From the IMG/VR virus record IMGVR_UViG_3300020172_003650, positions 1 to 27,886 of that record: 27,886 nt of DNA; one strand, given 5' to 3'. Under the pieces are notes generated by a model. That model was not told the origin of the DNA. It was given only the letters and a program-made list of their open reading frames with translations, and did no database searches. This document shows positions 2,523-16,408 of the stretch, one piece after another (positions within the stretch are counted from its first letter, which is position 1; each line of letters opens with the position of its first letter). The translations under genes were made by a program, and so were the position numbers. The DNA comes from a virus.

Positions 2523-2594
2523 GCCGATGCAGTTCAGTGGTAGAGCACTTGATTCATATCCAAGTTGTCGGAAGTTCAATTCTTCCCATCGGTA
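2523..2594 (+). tRNA. tRNA with CAT anticodon (elongator Met or Ile2)
   Basis: Acceptor GCCGATG/CATCGGT with a G-U first pair (2523-2529 with 2587-2593), anticodon loop TTCATAT (anticodon CAT), T-arm GGAAG-TTCAATT-CTTCC, discriminator A. The last anticodon-stem pair is an A-C mismatch and position 8 is C rather than T, so it is somewhat degenerate. Elongator Met and lysidine-modified Ile2 cannot be separated by eye. Confidence 0.8.
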
Positions 2595-2619
2595 CAAATA
2601 ATTTTTTCAACTATCAAAG

Positions 2620-2627
2620 TATTTATA
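2620..2627 (+). promoter_or_regulatory. TATTTATA element 3 nt upstream of ferritin ATG
   Basis: Exact TATTTATA ending 3 nt before the ATG at 2631. If it is a -10-type element, the transcript would be leaderless or nearly so. The same element and spacing recur before several other genes here. Confidence 0.45.
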
Positions 2628-2630
2628 TGT

Positions 2631-3215
2631 ATGGAAAACGTAACACTTACAAAAGACCAATTATTCAAAGCAATGAAAATTAATGAACAATCAGGTGAAA
2701 ACAAATTAAAATCTACACCAGGAGTAAAACTATATAGTTTATCCGATAAAACGGTTAATCTTCTTACTGCAAGGATAAAAGATGAATATACCGCACATTA
2801 TTTTTACAGAGCAGCGGCAAACTGGTGTAATGATGTAAATTATAAGAAAGCAGGTGCCTTCTTTGAAAAAGAAGCTGTGGATGAATTAACTCACGCACAG
2901 ATGATACAAGATTATATGACAGGATTTAACATTATCCCTGAAATTCCATCTGCAAGTCCAAAACATACATTTACAAACCTAATTGATATCGTTAATGAAG
3001 CATACACTATGGAGTTGAATTTAATGAAAGCATATAATAAAGATTCTCACACGGTATTTGCTGACGATATTACGACATTTGATTTTTTAACAAAACTTAG
3101 AAAAATACAAAAAGGTGCTGTTGTTGAATATAACGATTTAATAAATGCATCAAATCTTATAAGTAAGACAGATAAATTCCAAGTATTATACTTTGAGCAA
3201 ACATATTTTAATTAA
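2631..3215 (+). CDS. Ferritin-like iron storage protein
   Basis: 194 residues, close to bacterial ferritin length plus a short N-terminal extension. Ferritin ligand patterns are visible: helix A DEYTAHYFYRAA (Glu52), helix B FFEKEAVDELTHA (Glu79, Glu85, His88), helix C NEAYTMELN (Glu128) and a helix D Glu near 166. The family oxidises Fe(II) at a di-iron centre and stores it in a hollow cage in the cytoplasm. In a phage it might protect DNA from Fenton damage or buffer iron. The start is ATG 2631, not the longer frame that begins in the tRNA. It has its own upstream element and a strong terminator at 3237-3274, so it is probably monocistronic. Confidence 0.8.
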   Translation: MENVTLTKDQLFKAMKINEQSGENKLKSTPGVKLYSLSDKTVNLLTARIKDEYTAHYFYRAAANWCNDVNYKKAGAFFEKEAVDELTHAQMIQDYMTGFNIIPEIPSASPKHTFTNLIDIVNEAYTMELNLMKAYNKDSHTVFADDITTFDFLTKLRKIQKGAVVEYNDLINASNLISKTDKFQVLYFEQTYFN

Positions 3216-4148: not shown

Positions 4149-4922
4149 ATGGAAAAAATATCAGGAATTTATAAAATAACTAATTTAAAAAACAATAAAG
4201 TATACATTGGTAGTGCGGTTAATATTAAGAATAGATTTAAAACCCACAAAAGATTATTAAAGGATAATAAACATTTTAATAATCATTTGCAGTCAGCATA
4301 TGTAAAATATGGAATTGATAATTTTAATTATGAAATAATTGAGGTGACTACTCTTAGGGAAATGTTAGATAGAGAGATATATTGGATAACTATTCTTAGT
4401 GCTAATAATTCTAAATACGGTTATAATAAACGGATATTTGTTAATAGTAACTTAGGGATTAAATTATCTGACGAAACTAAACGTAAATTACGTGAAAGTC
4501 ATTTGGGACATAAAAGAAGTGATGAAGCAAATAAAAAAATAATTGAATCCCAATATAAAAAAATATGTCAGTTTAACAAAACTGGTGAATTTATTCAAAC
4601 ATTCAATAGTTTACAATCCGCGGCAAAATCCTTGAATTGTAAATATACCACCTCAATAACAAATTGTCTTAAAGGAAAATTACCTTCGGCTTTAGGGTTT
4701 TTGTGGTGTTATGAAAACGAAAAAGATAACTTCAAACCAATTATGGTAAAAAAACAAGGAAGAAAAAAAATTAAATTAAAAGTTACTTGTGTTATTACAA
4801 ATAATGTTACTATATTTGATTCAATCACTGAAACACTAAATACTTTAAAAGTATCAAGTGGGGTAATTTATAAAGGAATAAAAGAAAAAAAGTATAAAAA
4901 TTTATTATGGGAAAAAATTTAA
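4149..4922 (+). CDS. GIY-YIG homing endonuclease (NUMOD-type, free-standing)
   Basis: 257 residues. The N-terminal GIY-YIG nuclease shows GIY (6-8), YIG (19-21), the catalytic Arg in IKNRF (29) and Glu in REMLDREIYWI (about 77). It is followed by a NUMOD3 DNA-binding motif (LSDETKRKLRESHLGHKRSDEA, about 105-127) and a NUMOD1 helix-turn-helix region (QFNKTGEFIQTFNSLQSAAKSL to GFLWCYE, about 139-182). A second lower-similarity repeat sits at the C-terminus. These enzymes cut DNA at intronless alleles and spread by repair. No intron is evident around it. Its 3' end overlaps the start of the next gene by 16 nt, which suggests it arrived directly upstream of 4907. Confidence 0.9.
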   Translation: MEKISGIYKITNLKNNKVYIGSAVNIKNRFKTHKRLLKDNKHFNNHLQSAYVKYGIDNFNYEIIEVTTLREMLDREIYWITILSANNSKYGYNKRIFVNSNLGIKLSDETKRKLRESHLGHKRSDEANKKIIESQYKKICQFNKTGEFIQTFNSLQSAAKSLNCKYTTSITNCLKGKLPSALGFLWCYENEKDNFKPIMVKKQGRKKIKLKVTCVITNNVTIFDSITETLNTLKVSSGVIYKGIKEKKYKNLLWEKI

Positions 4923-7869: not shown

Positions 7870-9390
7870 TTAAAGAGCCTTCAATTCCCCTTTTTTGAAC
7901 GAATCAAAATTCGGTCCTTTTTTTAATATAAAACTATTACCTTTTTTATCGTAATCTAATATTCCAGCTAATCTGGCTGAGTTGAAAAATCCGCTACTTT
8001 GACCTCTCCAATCGGATGGTGTTCCCCATCTTCTGTCACCACCAACTTTTTGGTAAATTGGTTTTCCATTTAAAATACCCTTTTCTAAAATTCCAATATC
8101 CGTTAAAAAATCTAATTTGGTTCCTGTTTTACCTGAATCTAAATAATCAACCAATTTTTTAACCATACCAGCGTTTTTCTTAAACGTAAAACCATAACCA
8201 CTTCTATTTGGAATCCAAGTTGACTTTCCTCCGTGAACTAAAGACATAAATTCAGGAGATTGTTTCATTTTACTAACAACCCTTCTAGTAATTTGATATG
8301 TTATATCCTCAAATATTAGTTTAATCTGATTATCGGTTTGGATTTTTGGTATATCATAATTTAAGGTAAAATTTAAATTTTCAATATGTAAATCAAAGTC
8401 GAGAGTTGTATTACTATCATCCCAACTAAATCCAATGTTAACAATTAAACTAGATGGTTTGTTTATATCAAAATTAAAAATAATAAAAACCAAATATTGG
8501 TCAACATTTTCAGTATCAATAGAAATGTTCATATCCATTGTTGCATGATTCTCTAAATCACTATCAGCATCTATTAGTAAACTTGCGTTAGTATATTCAA
8601 TTGCAACTATTTGTTTAGTTTGCAATCCGCGACCTACATAATCAATCTTATATGAGGACTTATTAAATAGTTTATTAAATAAATCGTATTTAGCCTTAAG
8701 AATACTTTCCTTATAATCTTTTCTGACCATTTCAATAACTTTTGGTGCTCCAAGATTAAAAACTTCCTGTTCTCTTGTGCTCATTATAGTATCAGTAGCA
8801 TCATACCAAGTTTCTACATTAGGTGTTATGTGTATTGCTATTTTATAAAACTTATTTGATTGGTCAAAATTCTTTAATATTATGTAATACAATCCTTGGT
8901 TACCCGTTGTATGGCTTTCAAAATAAGATGACTGACTATCCATTGAAGTACACCATCTTGTACCAGCACCATATTTACAAGATGCTCTATGAGTTAATGG
9001 TTTAATAATTAAAATATTTTTATCTTCAAATATTTTTTCGGCTCCTGAGGCATCAAACTTATTTAATTGTGATTTTGAAGATGTAATATGTGATTGTATC
9101 GCATTTTTTAATCCATCAAGGTCGTATTGATTAATATCTTTAATTTCTAAAGATTGTTTGAATCTGTCAAAATCTTTAACAAGTTCTATTGCGTCTTCAA
9201 TTTCCTCATCGGATGTGTTTGGATGTAATTCTCTTAATACAAAATCGGTATATTTGAAATTGGTATCTGCTAAATCAGAAATACCTAAAATAAAATCCAA
9301 TGTTTCAGGATATTCTTTAAATTTATTAGAGTATTTTTTTCGTAAATCTTCTTTACGACCTTCTTTTATAAGGATTGGAGTTAATCTCAT
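7870..9390 (-). CDS. YG-x2-T-x-WC motif protein, copy 1
   Basis: 506 residues from ATG 9390, chosen because TATTTATA ends 3 nt upstream; a longer frame starts at 9426. After a helical N-terminus (ILIKEGRKEDLRKKY) it has a conserved core at residues 134-170: HRASCKYGAGTRWCTS, then YFESH and GLYYI (Cys138, Trp146, Cys147, His160). A second beta-rich half follows, and the C-terminus has aromatic and glycine-rich patches (RRWGTPSDWRGQSSGFF). The core recurs in the divergent gene at 10007. I recall this YG..T.WC pattern from large marine phage proteins of unknown function. Enzymatic activity around the Cys/His pair is possible but unproven. Confidence 0.7.
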   Translation of the reverse strand: MRLTPILIKEGRKEDLRKKYSNKFKEYPETLDFILGISDLADTNFKYTDFVLRELHPNTSDEEIEDAIELVKDFDRFKQSLEIKDINQYDLDGLKNAIQSHITSSKSQLNKFDASGAEKIFEDKNILIIKPLTHRASCKYGAGTRWCTSMDSQSSYFESHTTGNQGLYYIILKNFDQSNKFYKIAIHITPNVETWYDATDTIMSTREQEVFNLGAPKVIEMVRKDYKESILKAKYDLFNKLFNKSSYKIDYVGRGLQTKQIVAIEYTNASLLIDADSDLENHATMDMNISIDTENVDQYLVFIIFNFDINKPSSLIVNIGFSWDDSNTTLDFDLHIENLNFTLNYDIPKIQTDNQIKLIFEDITYQITRRVVSKMKQSPEFMSLVHGGKSTWIPNRSGYGFTFKKNAGMVKKLVDYLDSGKTGTKLDFLTDIGILEKGILNGKPIYQKVGGDRRWGTPSDWRGQSSGFFNSARLAGILDYDKKGNSFILKKGPNFDSFKKGELKAL

Positions 9391-9393
9391 ATA

Positions 9394-9401
9394 TATAAAT
9401 A
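9394..9401 (-). promoter_or_regulatory. TATTTATA element 3 nt upstream of 9390 start
   Basis: The minus strand reads TATTTATA, then 3 nt, then the ATG at 9390. It lies just downstream of the tmRNA terminator, giving the gene its own start signal. Confidence 0.45.
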
Positions 9402-9410
9402 TATGGGAAA

Positions 9411-9440
9411 CAAAAAACCCCATCACAAGGACAGGGTTTT
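9411..9440 (-). terminator. tmRNA terminator
   Basis: On the minus strand, just after the CCA end of the tmRNA, AAACCC pairs with GGGTTT (plus 9415-9420 with 9434-9439) and is followed by a T-run. Confidence 0.75.
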
Positions 9441-9446
9441 ATGTTA

Positions 9447-9837
9447 TGGTGGAGGTAGCGATTTCGAAATCGCTTCTTGCTCATCCTAAGTATTCAGGAC
9501 TACACGTTTAGGATAATGTTTTCTAACATTCCAAAATTCACAATTCCCTTATTTTTAAAGTGGTTTGTTTTACTGAAAACCTGTTTTCCACTTGTTTCTT
9601 TTAGGATAGAAACCACACCCTATAGAATCTTCTGTTCCTAGGTTAATGACTCCCCGACCCGAATATAGTTTTGCTTACGCTACTTCTACAAGCTCATCTT
9701 GTTTTACAAGACCTAATAGAGCCATTTTGTTTAACACGTTGCCGTATAATTGTTATTACCATAGATTTAAGTGATAGGAAACATCTCACTACGTGCCCCA
9801 AATAAATAAAAATGCCAATCAATACCATTTTACCCCC
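9447..9837 (-). ncRNA. ssrA: tmRNA (10Sa RNA) with divergent tag
   Basis: 391 nt. The 3' end on the minus strand reads TACCTCC-ACCA, with CCA encoded. Its acceptor pairs with GGGGGTA at the 5' end (9831-9837), 7 bp with one G-U. Helix ATCCTAA/TTAGGAT and the GTGTAGT-CCTGAATACT region match the tmRNA P2 and anticodon-like domain. The tag frame runs from GGT (9758-9760) to TAA (9731-9733) and encodes GNNNYTATC, colinear with the Bacteroidetes tag GENNYALAA but without the LAA end. A hairpin TCTTGT-AAA-ACAAGA follows the stop, where H5 is expected. The T-arm is a perfect palindrome with a 6-nt loop TTCGAA. tmRNA frees stalled ribosomes with SmpB and tags the peptide; no smpB lies in this window, so the host would supply it. 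Confidence 0.9.
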
Positions 9838-10006: not shown

Positions 10007-11815
10007 GTGATAATTGTAGAAGGTAAAAAAGAAGAAGTTGCTAAGAAACTTAAACAAAGATTTGAGTATGATGGCCCATTTATTGACCGTATGATGTTAA
10101 TAGACCCTACAGGATACAAATATGTTGATTACATAGGGAAAAAACTTGAAAAGATAATTCCTGAACTTGCGGGTAGTAAGGGGGGTCTTAATATTGGACA
10201 ACAAGAAGCAATTCAAGATGTGTTAGGAGTTGTCATTCCTTGGTTTAATGTAAATTTTGATAGAATAACTGAAGAAGATGTTTGGAAGGCAGAAACAAAT
10301 TATAGGGATAAATTTGGTATAGTTCCAAATATTGAGGGTATTTCAAAATCTCCAAAAGACATCAATCAATATGAAAATCCTGAGTTCATCAAATATCTTA
10401 TGGATATTGTTGACAGTAAGAAAAGTGCCAGGGAACTTGAAAAAGAATTAAAATCTCAGGTTGAGAAAATATATGAAGATGAGGATGTTTTGGTTGTTAG
10501 ACCAATGTCATATGCTGCCTCGTGTTATTATGGTGCAAATACAAAGTGGTGTACAACCACAAAAGGAAGTTCTGGATATTTTGATAAACATTTCAGTAAC
10601 GGTAAGTTGTATTATTTTTTAAATAAAAAAACGAATGTTAAATCTGCCTTATTTATTGATAAAGATAGAAAAGTTGAAGTATATGATTCTTCAGATAGAT
10701 TAATTAATTTAGACGATTTAAGAAAAGAATTTCCACAACAAACCGATTTAATTGATGAGTTGTCTGGGGTTGGTAGTTTTATTAAGATTTTAAGGGATTA
10801 TGCTAGAGGAAATGCGACCAGAAGTGAATTATATTCTGACCCATTAATATCCGATATAATACATGGAGAGCCACTTGGACAAACAAAACTTATTATTGAA
10901 TTTGACGATGACGATAAATTTTTAGAAACCATAGGATTGCATGAAGACGATATTTGGTTTGCTAATATGATTAATTCATCTTATAGTGATTATGAATTTA
11001 TGGATTCATACCAGATTAAAGAAGATTTTAAAGAAGGGTATGTCATATATAGTGAATTAACTGATGAGAACATTGGATTATTAAAACAGATTGCTGAGTT
11101 TGTTTATCCTGAAAAAACATTTAATATAGACGATTCTACCTATAGAATTGAATTAAACGAAAGACTTTTATCGTTATTTCCAAGCGAAATAGGTTATATT
11201 ATTGATGATTATACATTAGAAAAAAATCGTGAAATGTTTACTGTTGCAGAAGAAACTATTGATTCAGAAATTAATCGTTTATTGGAAGATTCTGGTTTTG
11301 AACTTTATCGTGGATACAGAAAAATTCAAACAACTGTTGGTAATTTATTAATGTGGTCGGCAAGGCTTGGAATAAATAAAACAAATATGTCTTCACTATT
11401 TGAAAAAATTATTAGTGAGAATGGTTCAGGTAATATTGGTGGATGGCACGAAAATTCATATGAATTCCAAAACCCTGAATATTTTGATAGTGAAAGTTTT
11501 AATAATGAAGTCACAAGACAATTTGATAAAATTTTAGAAGAAATAGAATCCGATTCTGAGGAAAAGGGTGTACCAATTAAAGAATTTTTAGATTTTAGGA
11601 ATAAAATTCTTAAAAAATTCGAACCAGAACAATGGTATAAGTTACCTAAAGACAATAATGTAAGTTTTAGAATTCAGGGGTTTGATAAAGACGATATGAA
11701 AGTAATCGTTAGATTACAAAGTAAAACCCGTGGATATCGTGATATTAACCTTAGTGAAGAAAATTTTTATAATTTATTATATCAACCAGGGTTATTTGAT
11801 GCAGATGAATTGTAA
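10007..11815 (+). CDS. YG-x2-T-x-WC motif protein, copy 2
   Basis: 602 residues from GTG 10007. This start is supported because MIIVEGKKEEVAKKLKQRF aligns with ILIKEGRKEDLRKKYSNKF at the start of copy 1. The same core follows: SYAASCYYGANTKWCTT, YFDKHFSNGKLYYF (Cys173, Trp181, Cys182, His195), in a matching position after EDEDVLVVRPM (copy 1: EDKNILIIKPL). The C-terminal two-thirds is acidic, differs from copy 1 and ends PGLFDADEL. It is transcribed away from copy 1, with the tmRNA and the hairpin element between. Paralogy is clear by eye; function unknown. Confidence 0.7.
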   Translation: MIIVEGKKEEVAKKLKQRFEYDGPFIDRMMLIDPTGYKYVDYIGKKLEKIIPELAGSKGGLNIGQQEAIQDVLGVVIPWFNVNFDRITEEDVWKAETNYRDKFGIVPNIEGISKSPKDINQYENPEFIKYLMDIVDSKKSARELEKELKSQVEKIYEDEDVLVVRPMSYAASCYYGANTKWCTTTKGSSGYFDKHFSNGKLYYFLNKKTNVKSALFIDKDRKVEVYDSSDRLINLDDLRKEFPQQTDLIDELSGVGSFIKILRDYARGNATRSELYSDPLISDIIHGEPLGQTKLIIEFDDDDKFLETIGLHEDDIWFANMINSSYSDYEFMDSYQIKEDFKEGYVIYSELTDENIGLLKQIAEFVYPEKTFNIDDSTYRIELNERLLSLFPSEIGYIIDDYTLEKNREMFTVAEETIDSEINRLLEDSGFELYRGYRKIQTTVGNLLMWSARLGINKTNMSSLFEKIISENGSGNIGGWHENSYEFQNPEYFDSESFNNEVTRQFDKILEEIESDSEEKGVPIKEFLDFRNKILKKFEPEQWYKLPKDNNVSFRIQGFDKDDMKVIVRLQSKTRGYRDINLSEENFYNLLYQPGLFDADEL

Positions 11816-11836: not shown

Positions 11837-12673
11837 ATGAATAAAGATTTAGAATTATTAAAGAACGTTTTAAGCGTTCCTACTGTCACATATCAGGAAG
11901 AAAGAATGGTTGCTTTTTTGGTTAATTGGTTAACTGAAAATAACATTGAACACTTCGTTGACGAACATAATAATGTTTACGCCACAAAACAAGAATCCTT
12001 TCTTGTTCCTGAAAACTTTTATTTCCCTTGTGTTATTTCACATACAGATACAGTTCACGGTATTGAATCAATCAACATTAGAGAGGAAATGTTGTTAAAT
12101 GCTCAAAAAGAACTTAAATTATCTTATAAAGCGTATAATGATGAAGGAAATCCAACAGGTATTGGTGGAGACGATAAATGTGGTGTTTTCGCCTGTTTAT
12201 CACTATTAAAAGAATTACCTTATTTGAAGGCAGCGTTTTTTGTTTCTGAAGAAACAGGATGTCACGGGTCATTAAAGGCGAGTGATGATTTCTTTAAGAA
12301 TGTTGGATACGGTATTCAGTTTGACGCTCCTGAAAATTGGATGATTACTGAAAAATGTTTTGGTCAGGTATTGTTTGATAGAAATACAGAATTTTTCACT
12401 TCTTGTGATAAAGTTTTAACCGAAGGTATGAAAGAAGAAATGAGATATATGGTTCATCCATATACTGATGTTTATGCACTAAGAACAAAATTTGATTTTT
12501 CTTGTATCAACTTTTCTATTGGATATTACAATTACCACACAAGACACGAATACGTTGTTGTTGAGGATGTGTTTAACGGTATTGATATGGGTAAAAAAAT
12601 GATTGAAAGCCTTGGATACAAATTACACTACAAAGAATTGGTAAAACCAAGAAGTTCTTATTTGGCGTTCTAA
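11837..12673 (+). CDS. M20-family (PepT-like) zinc aminopeptidase
   Basis: 278 residues. Metal-ligand motifs in family order: ISHTDTVHG (His69, Asp71), TGIGGDDKCG (bridging Asp112), VSEETGCHGS (catalytic Glu138, Glu139), QFDAPENW (Asp163) and YNYHTRHEYV (His234 or His237). The M20/M28 fold removes residues from short peptides with two zinc ions; PepT is a tripeptidase. It is shorter than host PepT (about 400 residues), as if the lid/dimerisation domain were reduced. It is cytoplasmic, with no signal peptide. A phage version could recycle peptides released by Clp-type proteolysis. Its stop overlaps the stop of the convergent gene at 12670. Confidence 0.82.
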   Translation: MNKDLELLKNVLSVPTVTYQEERMVAFLVNWLTENNIEHFVDEHNNVYATKQESFLVPENFYFPCVISHTDTVHGIESINIREEMLLNAQKELKLSYKAYNDEGNPTGIGGDDKCGVFACLSLLKELPYLKAAFFVSEETGCHGSLKASDDFFKNVGYGIQFDAPENWMITEKCFGQVLFDRNTEFFTSCDKVLTEGMKEEMRYMVHPYTDVYALRTKFDFSCINFSIGYYNYHTRHEYVVVEDVFNGIDMGKKMIESLGYKLHYKELVKPRSSYLAF

Positions 12674-13769: not shown

Positions 13770-15785
13770 TTAACGTCCTTTCTTTTGGACTAACACTACT
13801 TCATCTACGACTTTTATCGTATAACTTTTACCTTCAATCATCTTTCCAGTAAGTACTTCTTCAGATAATAGGTCTTCAATCTTATCTTGGATTGCTCTTT
13901 TAAGAGGACGAGCTCCAAATTCCTCATCGTACCCAATTTTAGCCAAATATTCAACTAATGAATCGTCATAGGTAATGGTGTATTTCATTTCAGATAAACG
14001 GAACACCAACTTCTTCAATTCTATGTCTGTAATCTTCTTAATATCGTCAGGAGACAATGAATTAAAGACAATAGTATCATCAATACGATTGATAAATTCA
14101 GGTGCGAAGAACTTTTTCATTTCTTTCATCAAAACTTGTTTTTTCGCTTCTTCATTTGCGTAAGGACTATTTGAAAACCCAATACCTGTTCCAAATTCCT
14201 GTAATTTCTTAACACCCAAGTTTGAAGTTAAGATAATCAAGGTATTCTTGAAGTTAATCTTACGACCCAAACTATCTGTAACGTGTCCATCATCCAAGAT
14301 TTGAAGTAAGATTGAGAATACATCTTTGTGAGCTTTTTCAACCTCATCAAATAGGATAACACAATATGGTTTGTTCTTAACCTTTTCGGTTAATAATCCA
14401 CCTTCTTCATAACCCACATATCCTGGAGGGGCTCCAACCAATTTGGAGATGGTATGTTTTTCTTGGTATTCGGACATATCCACACGGATAAGAGAATCTT
14501 CAGAACCAAACATTTCTTTTGCCAATTGTTTTGCCAAATATGTTTTACCAACACCAGTGGAACCTAAGAAGATAAATGAACCAATTGGACGATTAGGGTC
14601 TTTAATACCCAAACGATTTCTTTTGATTGATTTTGCAATCTTAATAACCGCATCGTTTTGACCGATAACTTTGTCAATCAAAGTTTTGTCCAAATTCATT
14701 AATGATTTTGAATCATCAACACTCATTTTACTTACAGGAATCTTTGTCATATTGGAAACAACATCATAAACATGCTCCATTAAGATAAGTTGTTTGTCTA
14801 TTGACATCTGTTCTTCAAACTTAACTTTCTCTTGCTCCAATTTTAACAATAGTTTTTTCTCTTTATCACGAAGTTCTGCCGCTTGTTCGTAATTCTGTTT
14901 TTTAACAACATCAATTTTTTGTTGTTTAATGTCCGCAGCTTTCTTTTTAAGTTCTTCAATAATTTCAGGAACTTTTAGTTCAGTTTGCATTCTCGCCCCA
15001 ACCTCATCTAAGATATCAAACGCCTTATCAGGGAATTCTCTGTCTGTGATATATCTGTCAGCCAATTTAACACAAGTTTCAATTACTTCATCTGTGTATG
15101 TTACATTGTGGAATGATTCGTATTTTTCACGAACATTTTTAAGAATCTGAATTGTTTCTGCAACTGAAGATGGTTCCACAATTACCTTTTGAAATCTACG
15201 TTCCAATGCTCCGTCTTTTTCAATGTTCTTACGGAACTCATCCAATGTGGTCGCTCCGATACATTGAAGTTCACCACGAGCAAGAGCTGGTTTAAAGATG
15301 TTTGAACCATCCATAGAACCTGAAGAATTACCCGAACCAACCAAAGTATGAATCTCATCAATAAACACAATAATATTAGGATTAGCCTGAAGTTCTTCAA
15401 TAATCACTTTCATTCTTTCTTCAAATTGTCCACGATACTTTGTACCAGCAACAACTGAAGTTAAATCAAGATTCACAATCCTTTTATCTATTAGATTTTT
15501 CGGACAATCACCATTAACAATTTTAATTGCCAATCCTTCAACCAATGCGGTTTTACCACAACCAGGTTCTCCGATAATAATTGGATTATTTTTCTTTCTA
15601 CGAGATAGGATTTGCGCAATCCTTAAGATTTCTCGTTCACGACCAATAACTGGGTCTAATTTACCTGCCTCGGCAAGTTTGTTCAAATCTCTACTGAAGT
15701 TGTCTAACACAGGTGTATTAGAATCCGCTGAGGATTTTTGTTTCTTACTCATCATTTTGTCGTCATCGTCCATTAGTTCGTTCAT
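13770..15785 (-). CDS. clpC-like: ClpC-like double AAA+ unfoldase lacking the Clp N-domain
   Basis: 671 residues, against about 810 for bacterial ClpC. AAA-1: Walker A GEPGCGKT (72-79), Walker B VFIDE (140-144), arginine finger ERRF. A short middle region carries a UVR motif (KKQNYEQAAELRDKEKKL, about 295-312), as in ClpC. AAA-2: Walker A GSTGVGKT (408-415), Walker B ILFDE (477-481), pore loop GYVG, sensor-2 ARPLKRAI. Between TSN and PEFINRID lies IGF (535-537), in the position of the ClpP-docking IGL/IGF loop. The family unfolds proteins into ClpP with ATP. The Clp_N adaptor domain is replaced by about 45 charged residues. No clpP is in the window, so host ClpP is the likely partner. The long middle domain of ClpB is absent, which argues against a pure disaggregase. 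Confidence 0.9.
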   Translation of the reverse strand: MNELMDDDDKMMSKKQKSSADSNTPVLDNFSRDLNKLAEAGKLDPVIGREREILRIAQILSRRKKNNPIIIGEPGCGKTALVEGLAIKIVNGDCPKNLIDKRIVNLDLTSVVAGTKYRGQFEERMKVIIEELQANPNIIVFIDEIHTLVGSGNSSGSMDGSNIFKPALARGELQCIGATTLDEFRKNIEKDGALERRFQKVIVEPSSVAETIQILKNVREKYESFHNVTYTDEVIETCVKLADRYITDREFPDKAFDILDEVGARMQTELKVPEIIEELKKKAADIKQQKIDVVKKQNYEQAAELRDKEKKLLLKLEQEKVKFEEQMSIDKQLILMEHVYDVVSNMTKIPVSKMSVDDSKSLMNLDKTLIDKVIGQNDAVIKIAKSIKRNRLGIKDPNRPIGSFIFLGSTGVGKTYLAKQLAKEMFGSEDSLIRVDMSEYQEKHTISKLVGAPPGYVGYEEGGLLTEKVKNKPYCVILFDEVEKAHKDVFSILLQILDDGHVTDSLGRKINFKNTLIILTSNLGVKKLQEFGTGIGFSNSPYANEEAKKQVLMKEMKKFFAPEFINRIDDTIVFNSLSPDDIKKITDIELKKLVFRLSEMKYTITYDDSLVEYLAKIGYDEEFGARPLKRAIQDKIEDLLSEEVLTGKMIEGKSYTIKVVDEVVLVQKKGR

Positions 15786-15973: not shown

Positions 15974-16408
15974 ATGTTTAGAAGAAGAAAAAACTTTACC
16001 GACTTATTTAGCGAATTTGATTCAATGTTCAGTCAATTTGATTCAATTTTTGAAGGCACGTCACCAAAGACATTAAAAGAAGAAGGCACCGATGAATTAG
16101 GTGATTGGTCAAAAGAAACCTACAAATCAGAAGATGGTTCAATTTATATTACCAACTTTGTTAGAACAAGTAGTAATGGTCAACCAAGAAAAATTGGAAC
16201 CCTTGAACAATTAAAAATGAAACTTCAAGAATCAATTGAAAATGAAGATTTTGAGGAAGCAGTTAAACTAAGAGACCAAATCAAAACTTTTGAATCTAAT
16301 AAAGAAAAAATTAATAAGTTAGATTCAGAACTTAAACAAGTAATCAAAGAACAAAACTTTGAACGAGCGGTAGAATTAAGAGATGAGATTAAAAAATTGA
16401 AGTCCTAA
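15974..16408 (+). CDS. UVR-motif protein (McsA-like ClpC adaptor candidate)
   Basis: 144 residues. The N-terminus is Phe/Asp/Ser-rich (FTDLFSEFDSMFSQFDSIFEG), and a short beta region follows (DGSIYITNFVRT). The C-terminal half is two UVR motifs in a coiled coil: LEQLKMKLQESIENEDFEEAVKLRDQI (77-104) and LDSELKQVIKEQNFERAVELRDEIKKL (116-142). UVR motifs mediate UvrB-UvrC contact and, in McsA and ClpC, adaptor-unfoldase contact. The zinc-finger Cys pairs of McsA are missing. It is divergent from the ClpC-like gene, which has a matching UVR motif, and shares the operator-like pair. An adaptor role is inferred. Confidence 0.7.
   Translation: MFRRRKNFTDLFSEFDSMFSQFDSIFEGTSPKTLKEEGTDELGDWSKETYKSEDGSIYITNFVRTSSNGQPRKIGTLEQLKMKLQESIENEDFEEAVKLRDQIKTFESNKEKINKLDSELKQVIKEQNFERAVELRDEIKKLKS

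Follow-up and report, generated by a model that had tools for sequence, protein, structure and literature searches.

A phage tmRNA with a long conserved tag of its own, encoded near a ClpC-like unfoldase

Does the tmRNA gene in this stretch of viral DNA add a tag that shields rescued peptides from proteolysis, or one that marks them for it? The window, i.e., the whole stretch that was analyzed, comprises 27,886 bases; the record is a 28-kb fragment of a T4-like phage, and both its portal protein and its large terminase are of the T4 type. The original prediction for this DNA was that it encodes a phage tmRNA, which is borne out, and that the tag of this RNA reads GNNNYTATC and has thereby lost the C-terminal LAA of the bacterial tag. 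Phage tmRNAs as such are already known. Of 18,146 phage genomes, 402 (about 2%) carry one (PMC9004378), with mycobacteriophages and phage G among the carriers (PMC4131195), and sections of another report describe both tmRNA and SmpB in huge phages (PMC7162821). The tmRNA and tag described here are a new variant.

The tmRNA gene and its fold

A one-piece tmRNA gene with an encoded CCA is found at positions 9447-9837, on the minus strand. The Rfam tmRNA model, RF00023, matches it with 42.6 bits (E=1.4e-15 for the stretch) over 374 of 374 model positions, slightly below the gathering threshold of 47 bits; all five relatives checked against this score (L016, L020, L149, L195 and L205) pass it, with 79-118 bits. 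ARAGORN, when run on the window, does not report a tmRNA at 9447-9837. Because the window tmRNA escapes both ARAGORN and the default Rfam cut-off, neither was retained as arbiter. In this phage family ARAGORN recovers only about one-fifth of the tmRNAs and often misreads the tag, so that phage tmRNAs and their tags are under-annotated.

Relatives were gathered in several ways. The neighboring 602-aa protein, used as query, yielded 20 viral loci. Two DNA patterns derived from the conserved tmRNA ends, with the tag excluded, followed by a nucleotide profile, yielded 128 nearly complete matches, 94 of them distinct; 41 representatives were then defined by mutual identity below 85%. An independent set of tags, from 62 complete loci, was collected via clpC and not via the RNA. 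The 602-aa marker has no relative in the bacterial genomes searched, and a search of INPHARED with the tag and two of the RNAs returned other phage tmRNAs, which matched only at their ends, and no member of the present family. RNAalifold predicts 46 base pairs for the 41 representatives, in 32 of which both partners have changed in one or more sequences, and the consensus structure thus covaries. The folding energy of the single window RNA is uninformative (z=-1.26).

The acceptor stem is formed by GGGGGTA at the 5' end (9831-9837) and TACCTCC at the 3' end (9451-9457), which pair at seven of seven positions; the 3' strand, with discriminator A and encoded CCA, spans 9447-9457. Acceptor pairing and CCA are therefore as originally described. 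The alanine identity pair G3.U70 is present in the window, and this pair and the discriminator A are invariant in all 85 relatives with a parsable acceptor and T-arm, and CCA is encoded in 51 of these 85. The T-arm (9458-9473) has a perfect stem, GCGAT/ATCGC, around a loop of 6 nt, TTCGAA, the normal size being 7 nt. Its stem pairs covary, and the 6-nt loop recurs in L001, L002, L003, L005, L079 and L134, with perfectly paired stems. Pseudoknot PK1 spans 9755-9790. Its stem 1, AGTGA/TCACT (9786-9790 with 9770-9774), contains pairs changed on both sides. For stem 2, GTTTCC/GGTAAT (9777-9782 with 9755-9760), 139 of 156 positions pair across 26 distinct pairs of strands, compared with 116.9 +/- 3.6 when the partners are shuffled (maximum of 131 in 5000 permutations). 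An intrinsic terminator (9414-9440, minus strand), with 11 pairs followed by a T run, starts 6 nt past the CCA; shuffled regions average 0.1.

Several relatives have tmRNAs with peculiarities of their own. L139:1023-1410 is identical to the window tmRNA in PK1 and tag and differs in the acceptor and T-arm, and this gene looks, from its sequence, like a mosaic produced by recombination. At the tmRNA 3' ends of L223, L187, L132 and L198, the T-loop is broken up or unparsable after ..GGGTT. These interruptions are probably group I introns, here in phages, at a type of site known from bacterial tmRNAs (PMC11915505); that in L198 may be a mere cut at the contig end. The T-arms of L228, L230 and L168 carry a T-loop GGCGG.. 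in place of TTCGA.., with the stem still paired, which is unusual for a tmRNA. Lastly, two genomes carry the giant RNA GOLLD (RF02032) at a distance of about 0.4-0.9 kb from the tmRNA: a phage record of 304 kb (L195:116-530, plus strand) and mycobacteriophage Nanosmite (L246:2420-2797, plus strand).

The reading frame of the tag

The originally predicted tag frame, GGT AAT AAC AAT TAT ACG GCA ACG TGT TAA, is indeed present at 9731-9760 of the minus strand. It is not the tag, however, because its GGTAAT (9755-9760) forms the 3' side of stem 2 in PK1 and because the frame is broken in relatives: it is intact in the window and, among relatives, in the near-twin L139 alone, and has a stop at the fifth codon in most of the others. 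The GNNNYTATC frame was therefore rejected; it consists of the PK1 3' strand, a spacer and the out-of-frame start of the true tag. Its alignment to GENNYALAA, which rests on this out-of-frame sequence, is wrong, and the H5-like hairpin proposed to follow its stop falls within the real tag, at 9696-9712, and lacks conservation.

The true frame starts 17 nt farther downstream, at a GGC codon at RNA offset 95, and runs to GCG TAA (9675-9743, minus strand). It encodes GNVLNKMALLGLVKQDELVEVA, which ends in ..EVA. An offset of 95 agrees with the 95-98 at which ARAGORN places the resume codons of tmRNAs from bacterial Bacteroidota. This frame is open in all 94 distinct relatives, with tags of 20-22 aa (82 of 21, 11 of 22 and one of 20) and 58 distinct tag sequences. 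The consensus is G[NDE][VT][LIF]xK[ML]xx[VIL]GL[IV]RxxEVxVA followed by a stop or, written as a single sequence, GNVLNKMSALGLIRTEEVTVA. All 41 divergent representatives have an open tag frame; the other two frames are open in 0 and 2 of them. Codon-position entropies of 0.92, 0.53 and 1.31 indicate that the third position is the most variable and the second the least, and pN/pS is 0.62 in frame versus 0.77 and 1.24 in the shifted frames. The residues G1, G11 and L12 hardly vary, and hydrophobic positions interchange I, L, V and M. To judge from these substitution patterns, the tag is constrained at the protein level along its whole length.

The final residue is Ala in 86 of the 94 tags, the commonest ends being TVA, VVA and AVA; a few relatives end in VTI or TVS, and no tag in the family ends in LAA. 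That is, the claim of a tag without an LAA end holds for the true tag, which ends in ..EVA in the case of the window and in xVA in most relatives. Likewise, the comparison with related contigs that had been proposed finds the non-LAA end conserved, in a different frame and at the end of a tag of 20-22 aa. The clpC-anchored loci encode the same tag family in 62 of 62 complete cases, three of which begin with D and not G. A search of the PDB with the tag profile gave no match.

How does this tag compare with those of the likely hosts? The bacterial proteins closest to the phage ClpC, with identities of up to 61%, come from Bacteroidota, chiefly Flavobacteriia; for this reason we take Bacteroidota as the host, and these uncultured viruses, whose records name no host, probably infect members of that phylum. 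In 30 Bacteroidota genomes analyzed with ARAGORN, 28 tags are GENNYALAA-like, with 9-10 aa and an LAA or MAA end; of the remaining two genomes, one has no call and one an odd call. (Tags most often have a length of 10; PMC11915505.) The one-piece tmRNA of Bacteroidota, as modeled in RF00023, shares with that of the phage the G3.U70 acceptor, the T-arm, a PK1 ahead of the resume codon, and a resume glycine at RNA offset ~95 followed by the tag and a stop. By contrast, the phage tag is 20-22 residues long, ends in xVA, and is unrelated to the bacterial one beyond the first residue. The phage tag profile finds 38 of 40 phage records, with E values of 1e-7 to 1e-14, while in 296 Bacteroidota genomes it gives a single weak match (E=0.003), which is partial and falls within a frame of 1039 aa.

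A phage tag that departs from LAA is not unique to this family. Bacillus phage G has a non-LAA tag, AKLNITNNELQVA according to ARAGORN, and that of Nanosmite apparently ends in ..DYAVGA. In the tmRNA of huge phage LR756508 (L449:1501-1947), the offset-97 frame reads GVNNADYESAGFTAEDFAQMDGESLYHGSERKPAAV up to a stop, a possible tag of 36 aa; ARAGORN picks a different one, of 8 aa. The tmRNAs of mycobacteriophages, Bacillus phage G, Caulobacter phage CcrPW, huge phages and the OM43 phage Melnitz likewise reside in lytic phage genomes, but none was found with the present tag, which is conserved across a large family beside a phage ClpC. What is new is thus that a large family shares a long conserved tag and in addition encodes phage ClpC and ClpP.

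Clp, SmpB and other genes of these phages

The window encodes an AAA+ unfoldase of 671 aa at 13770-15785, on the minus strand, with two AAA+ modules and GIGF at the ClpP-docking loop. A Pfam scan of this protein finds no N-terminal Clp_N domain; we call it ClpC-like because this domain is absent and because it is shorter than the host proteins (median 849 aa). The docking loop, G[IVL]GF, is present in 49 of 49 phage ClpC proteins scored, and ClpC is encoded in 29 of 29 tmRNA-phage records searched. Among 80 clpC-anchored loci, every one of the 38 with full flanks has the tmRNA on the strand of clpC, 2-5 kb downstream of it. The notion that a nearby ClpC-like unfoldase receives the tagged chains is therefore reasonable, and the linkage is stronger than had been claimed; that this protein recognizes the tag is something we infer. 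Linkage alone is no proof of function, since the whole gene block is conserved: the genes for an M20-type peptidase (a weak match; 11837-12673, plus strand, and universally linked in this phage group) and for the 602-aa protein lie between clpC and the tmRNA in the same 38 of 38 loci. The partial correlation of tag and ClpC distances, controlling for other genes, is 0.12, significant but small, and the correlation of the tag with ClpC is no larger than that with the adjacent 602-aa gene. Tag-ClpC coevolution was accordingly discarded as proof of a pairing, being weak and indecisive.

A probable ClpP is encoded in 17 of 40 records. Of the 11 tmRNA-bearing records that reach 150 kb or more, 9 have it and two lack it. 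The copy in L441 scores 250 bits against the ClpP model versus 75 against the head-maturation protease model, below the NCBIfam equivalog cut-off, and by inspection retains the residues expected of an active enzyme (GLAASMGS, MIHQ and NRDFW). SmpB is found in 5 of 47 IMG/VR records searched, in four of them 0.7-1.1 kb from the tag. Neither SmpB nor ClpP is seen in the window record, a 28-kb fragment. Two phages of 634-642 kb, LR756502 and LR745206, encode SmpB and a ClpC ~58-60% identical to that of the window, and have no strong tmRNA match.

A small protein with two UVR motifs (15974-16408, plus strand; PF02151, E=3e-17) resembles McsA, with 47 bits to the McsA model, below its cut-off. Its role as a Clp adaptor is speculative, and that of an obligatory adaptor was rejected, since only 21 of the 38 loci have the gene beside clpC. 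Elsewhere in the window are a ferritin-like protein (2565-3215, plus strand) and a GIY-YIG/NUMOD homing endonuclease gene beside a tRNA cluster (4149-4922, plus strand). The proteins flanking the tmRNA (7870-9426, minus strand, and 10007-11815, plus strand) have no Pfam match and share a motif (ASCKYGAGTRWCT and AASCYYGANTKWCT, respectively); judging by this motif, they may be paralogues.

The fate of tagged chains

Our proposed interpretation, to which we assign a probability of about 0.72, is that this is a functional phage tmRNA with a private degron tag, whose tagged chains probably go to phage ClpC/ClpP. The phage tmRNA would be charged with alanine and would enter stalled ribosomes together with SmpB, either that of the host or, in a few relatives, one encoded by the phage. 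It would then add a phage-specific tag of 20-22 residues, which for the window would give Ala-GNVLNKMALLGLVKQDELVEVA, the leading Ala being the charged one. With its V-A type of C-terminus the tag would act as a proteolysis signal, and the rescued nascent chains would be sent to a Clp protease rather than protected, most likely the N-domain-less phage ClpC together with phage or host ClpP. The parts of this interpretation are not equally firm. That the tmRNA is functional with the true-frame tag is very probable, and that the tag is a degron is probable; phage ClpC as the main reader is somewhat short of an even bet. The absence of the N-domain from the phage ClpC counts against the proposal. 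This domain is the route by which many ClpC adaptors act.

Which other readings might account for these data? The tag could be a degron for host ClpXP or another host protease, with the phage adding rescue capacity and its ClpC serving unrelated protein handling. The V/A-A ends are indeed close to degradable ssrA variants (PMC9097571), and the linkage with ClpC might reflect synteny and nothing more, given that the genes for the M20 peptidase and the 602-aa protein are just as fixed. Host tags, however, are short and near-uniform, and a conserved 21-aa tag without a host counterpart exceeds what host ClpXP should require; we regard this reading as unlikely, if worth serious consideration. The same V-A end bears on the original idea that the degron is lost and that tagged peptides escape host proteolysis. 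The absence of LAA from every tag, and the VTI or TVS ends of a few relatives, would suit that idea, but its founding sequence is out of frame, and the true tags are long, conserved and Ala-terminal in the great majority. Variants of the E. coli tag that end in LVA remain strongly degraded (PMC9097571). Escape is the less likely reading because the V-A end resembles this strongly destabilizing variant; we consider it improbable, and the claim unsupported.

The RNA might instead merely free ribosomes, with the tag being incidental. In E. coli, certain tmRNA functions are independent of tag degradation, which speaks for this option; it is already disfavored by the protein-level constraint on the whole tag, as seen in the codon-position entropy, the near-fixed G1, G11 and L12, and the hydrophobic positions, and we judge it highly improbable. 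A decaying window copy, finally, could account for the sub-threshold Rfam score and the 6-nt T-loop. Yet acceptor, T-stem, PK1, tag and terminator are all intact, several relatives with perfect stems have a loop of the same size, and L139 carries an identical tag. Decay thus seems even a little less credible than an incidental tag.

The degron interpretation has a cellular precedent. The ssrA tag of Mesoplasma florum and its Lon protease form a pair that is orthogonal to the E. coli proteases (PMC9097571), i.e., a non-standard tag with a dedicated protease, or private degron; it differs from the present case in that it is cellular, employs Lon instead of Clp, and has a sequence unrelated to the phage tag. 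As for viruses, sections of two papers note tmRNA and SmpB among the translation genes of huge phages (PMC7162821) and Clp protease in Bacteroidetes phages with bS21 (PMC9723584), but those sections describe no conserved private tag and no coupling of tmRNA to Clp. In the openly accessible literature, which was the scope of our search, we found no description of this tag family or of a phage tmRNA-Clp pairing.

Phage tmRNAs are customarily viewed as spare copies of host functions. A conserved tag found only in phages, with phage Clp genes close by, suggests that certain viruses operate a protein quality control of their own. It is quite possible, and for now tentative, that these phages possess a private tag-and-destroy system made up of a tmRNA with its own conserved degron, a streamlined ClpC that reads it either directly or with the help of a phage-encoded adaptor, a phage ClpP and, in some genomes, SmpB. 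Such a system would dispose of unfinished proteins or recycle them in the infected cell without recourse to the ssrA-ClpXP pathway of the host. The phage tag and Clp genes would then constitute a natural orthogonal tag-protease pair, and one that can be tested.
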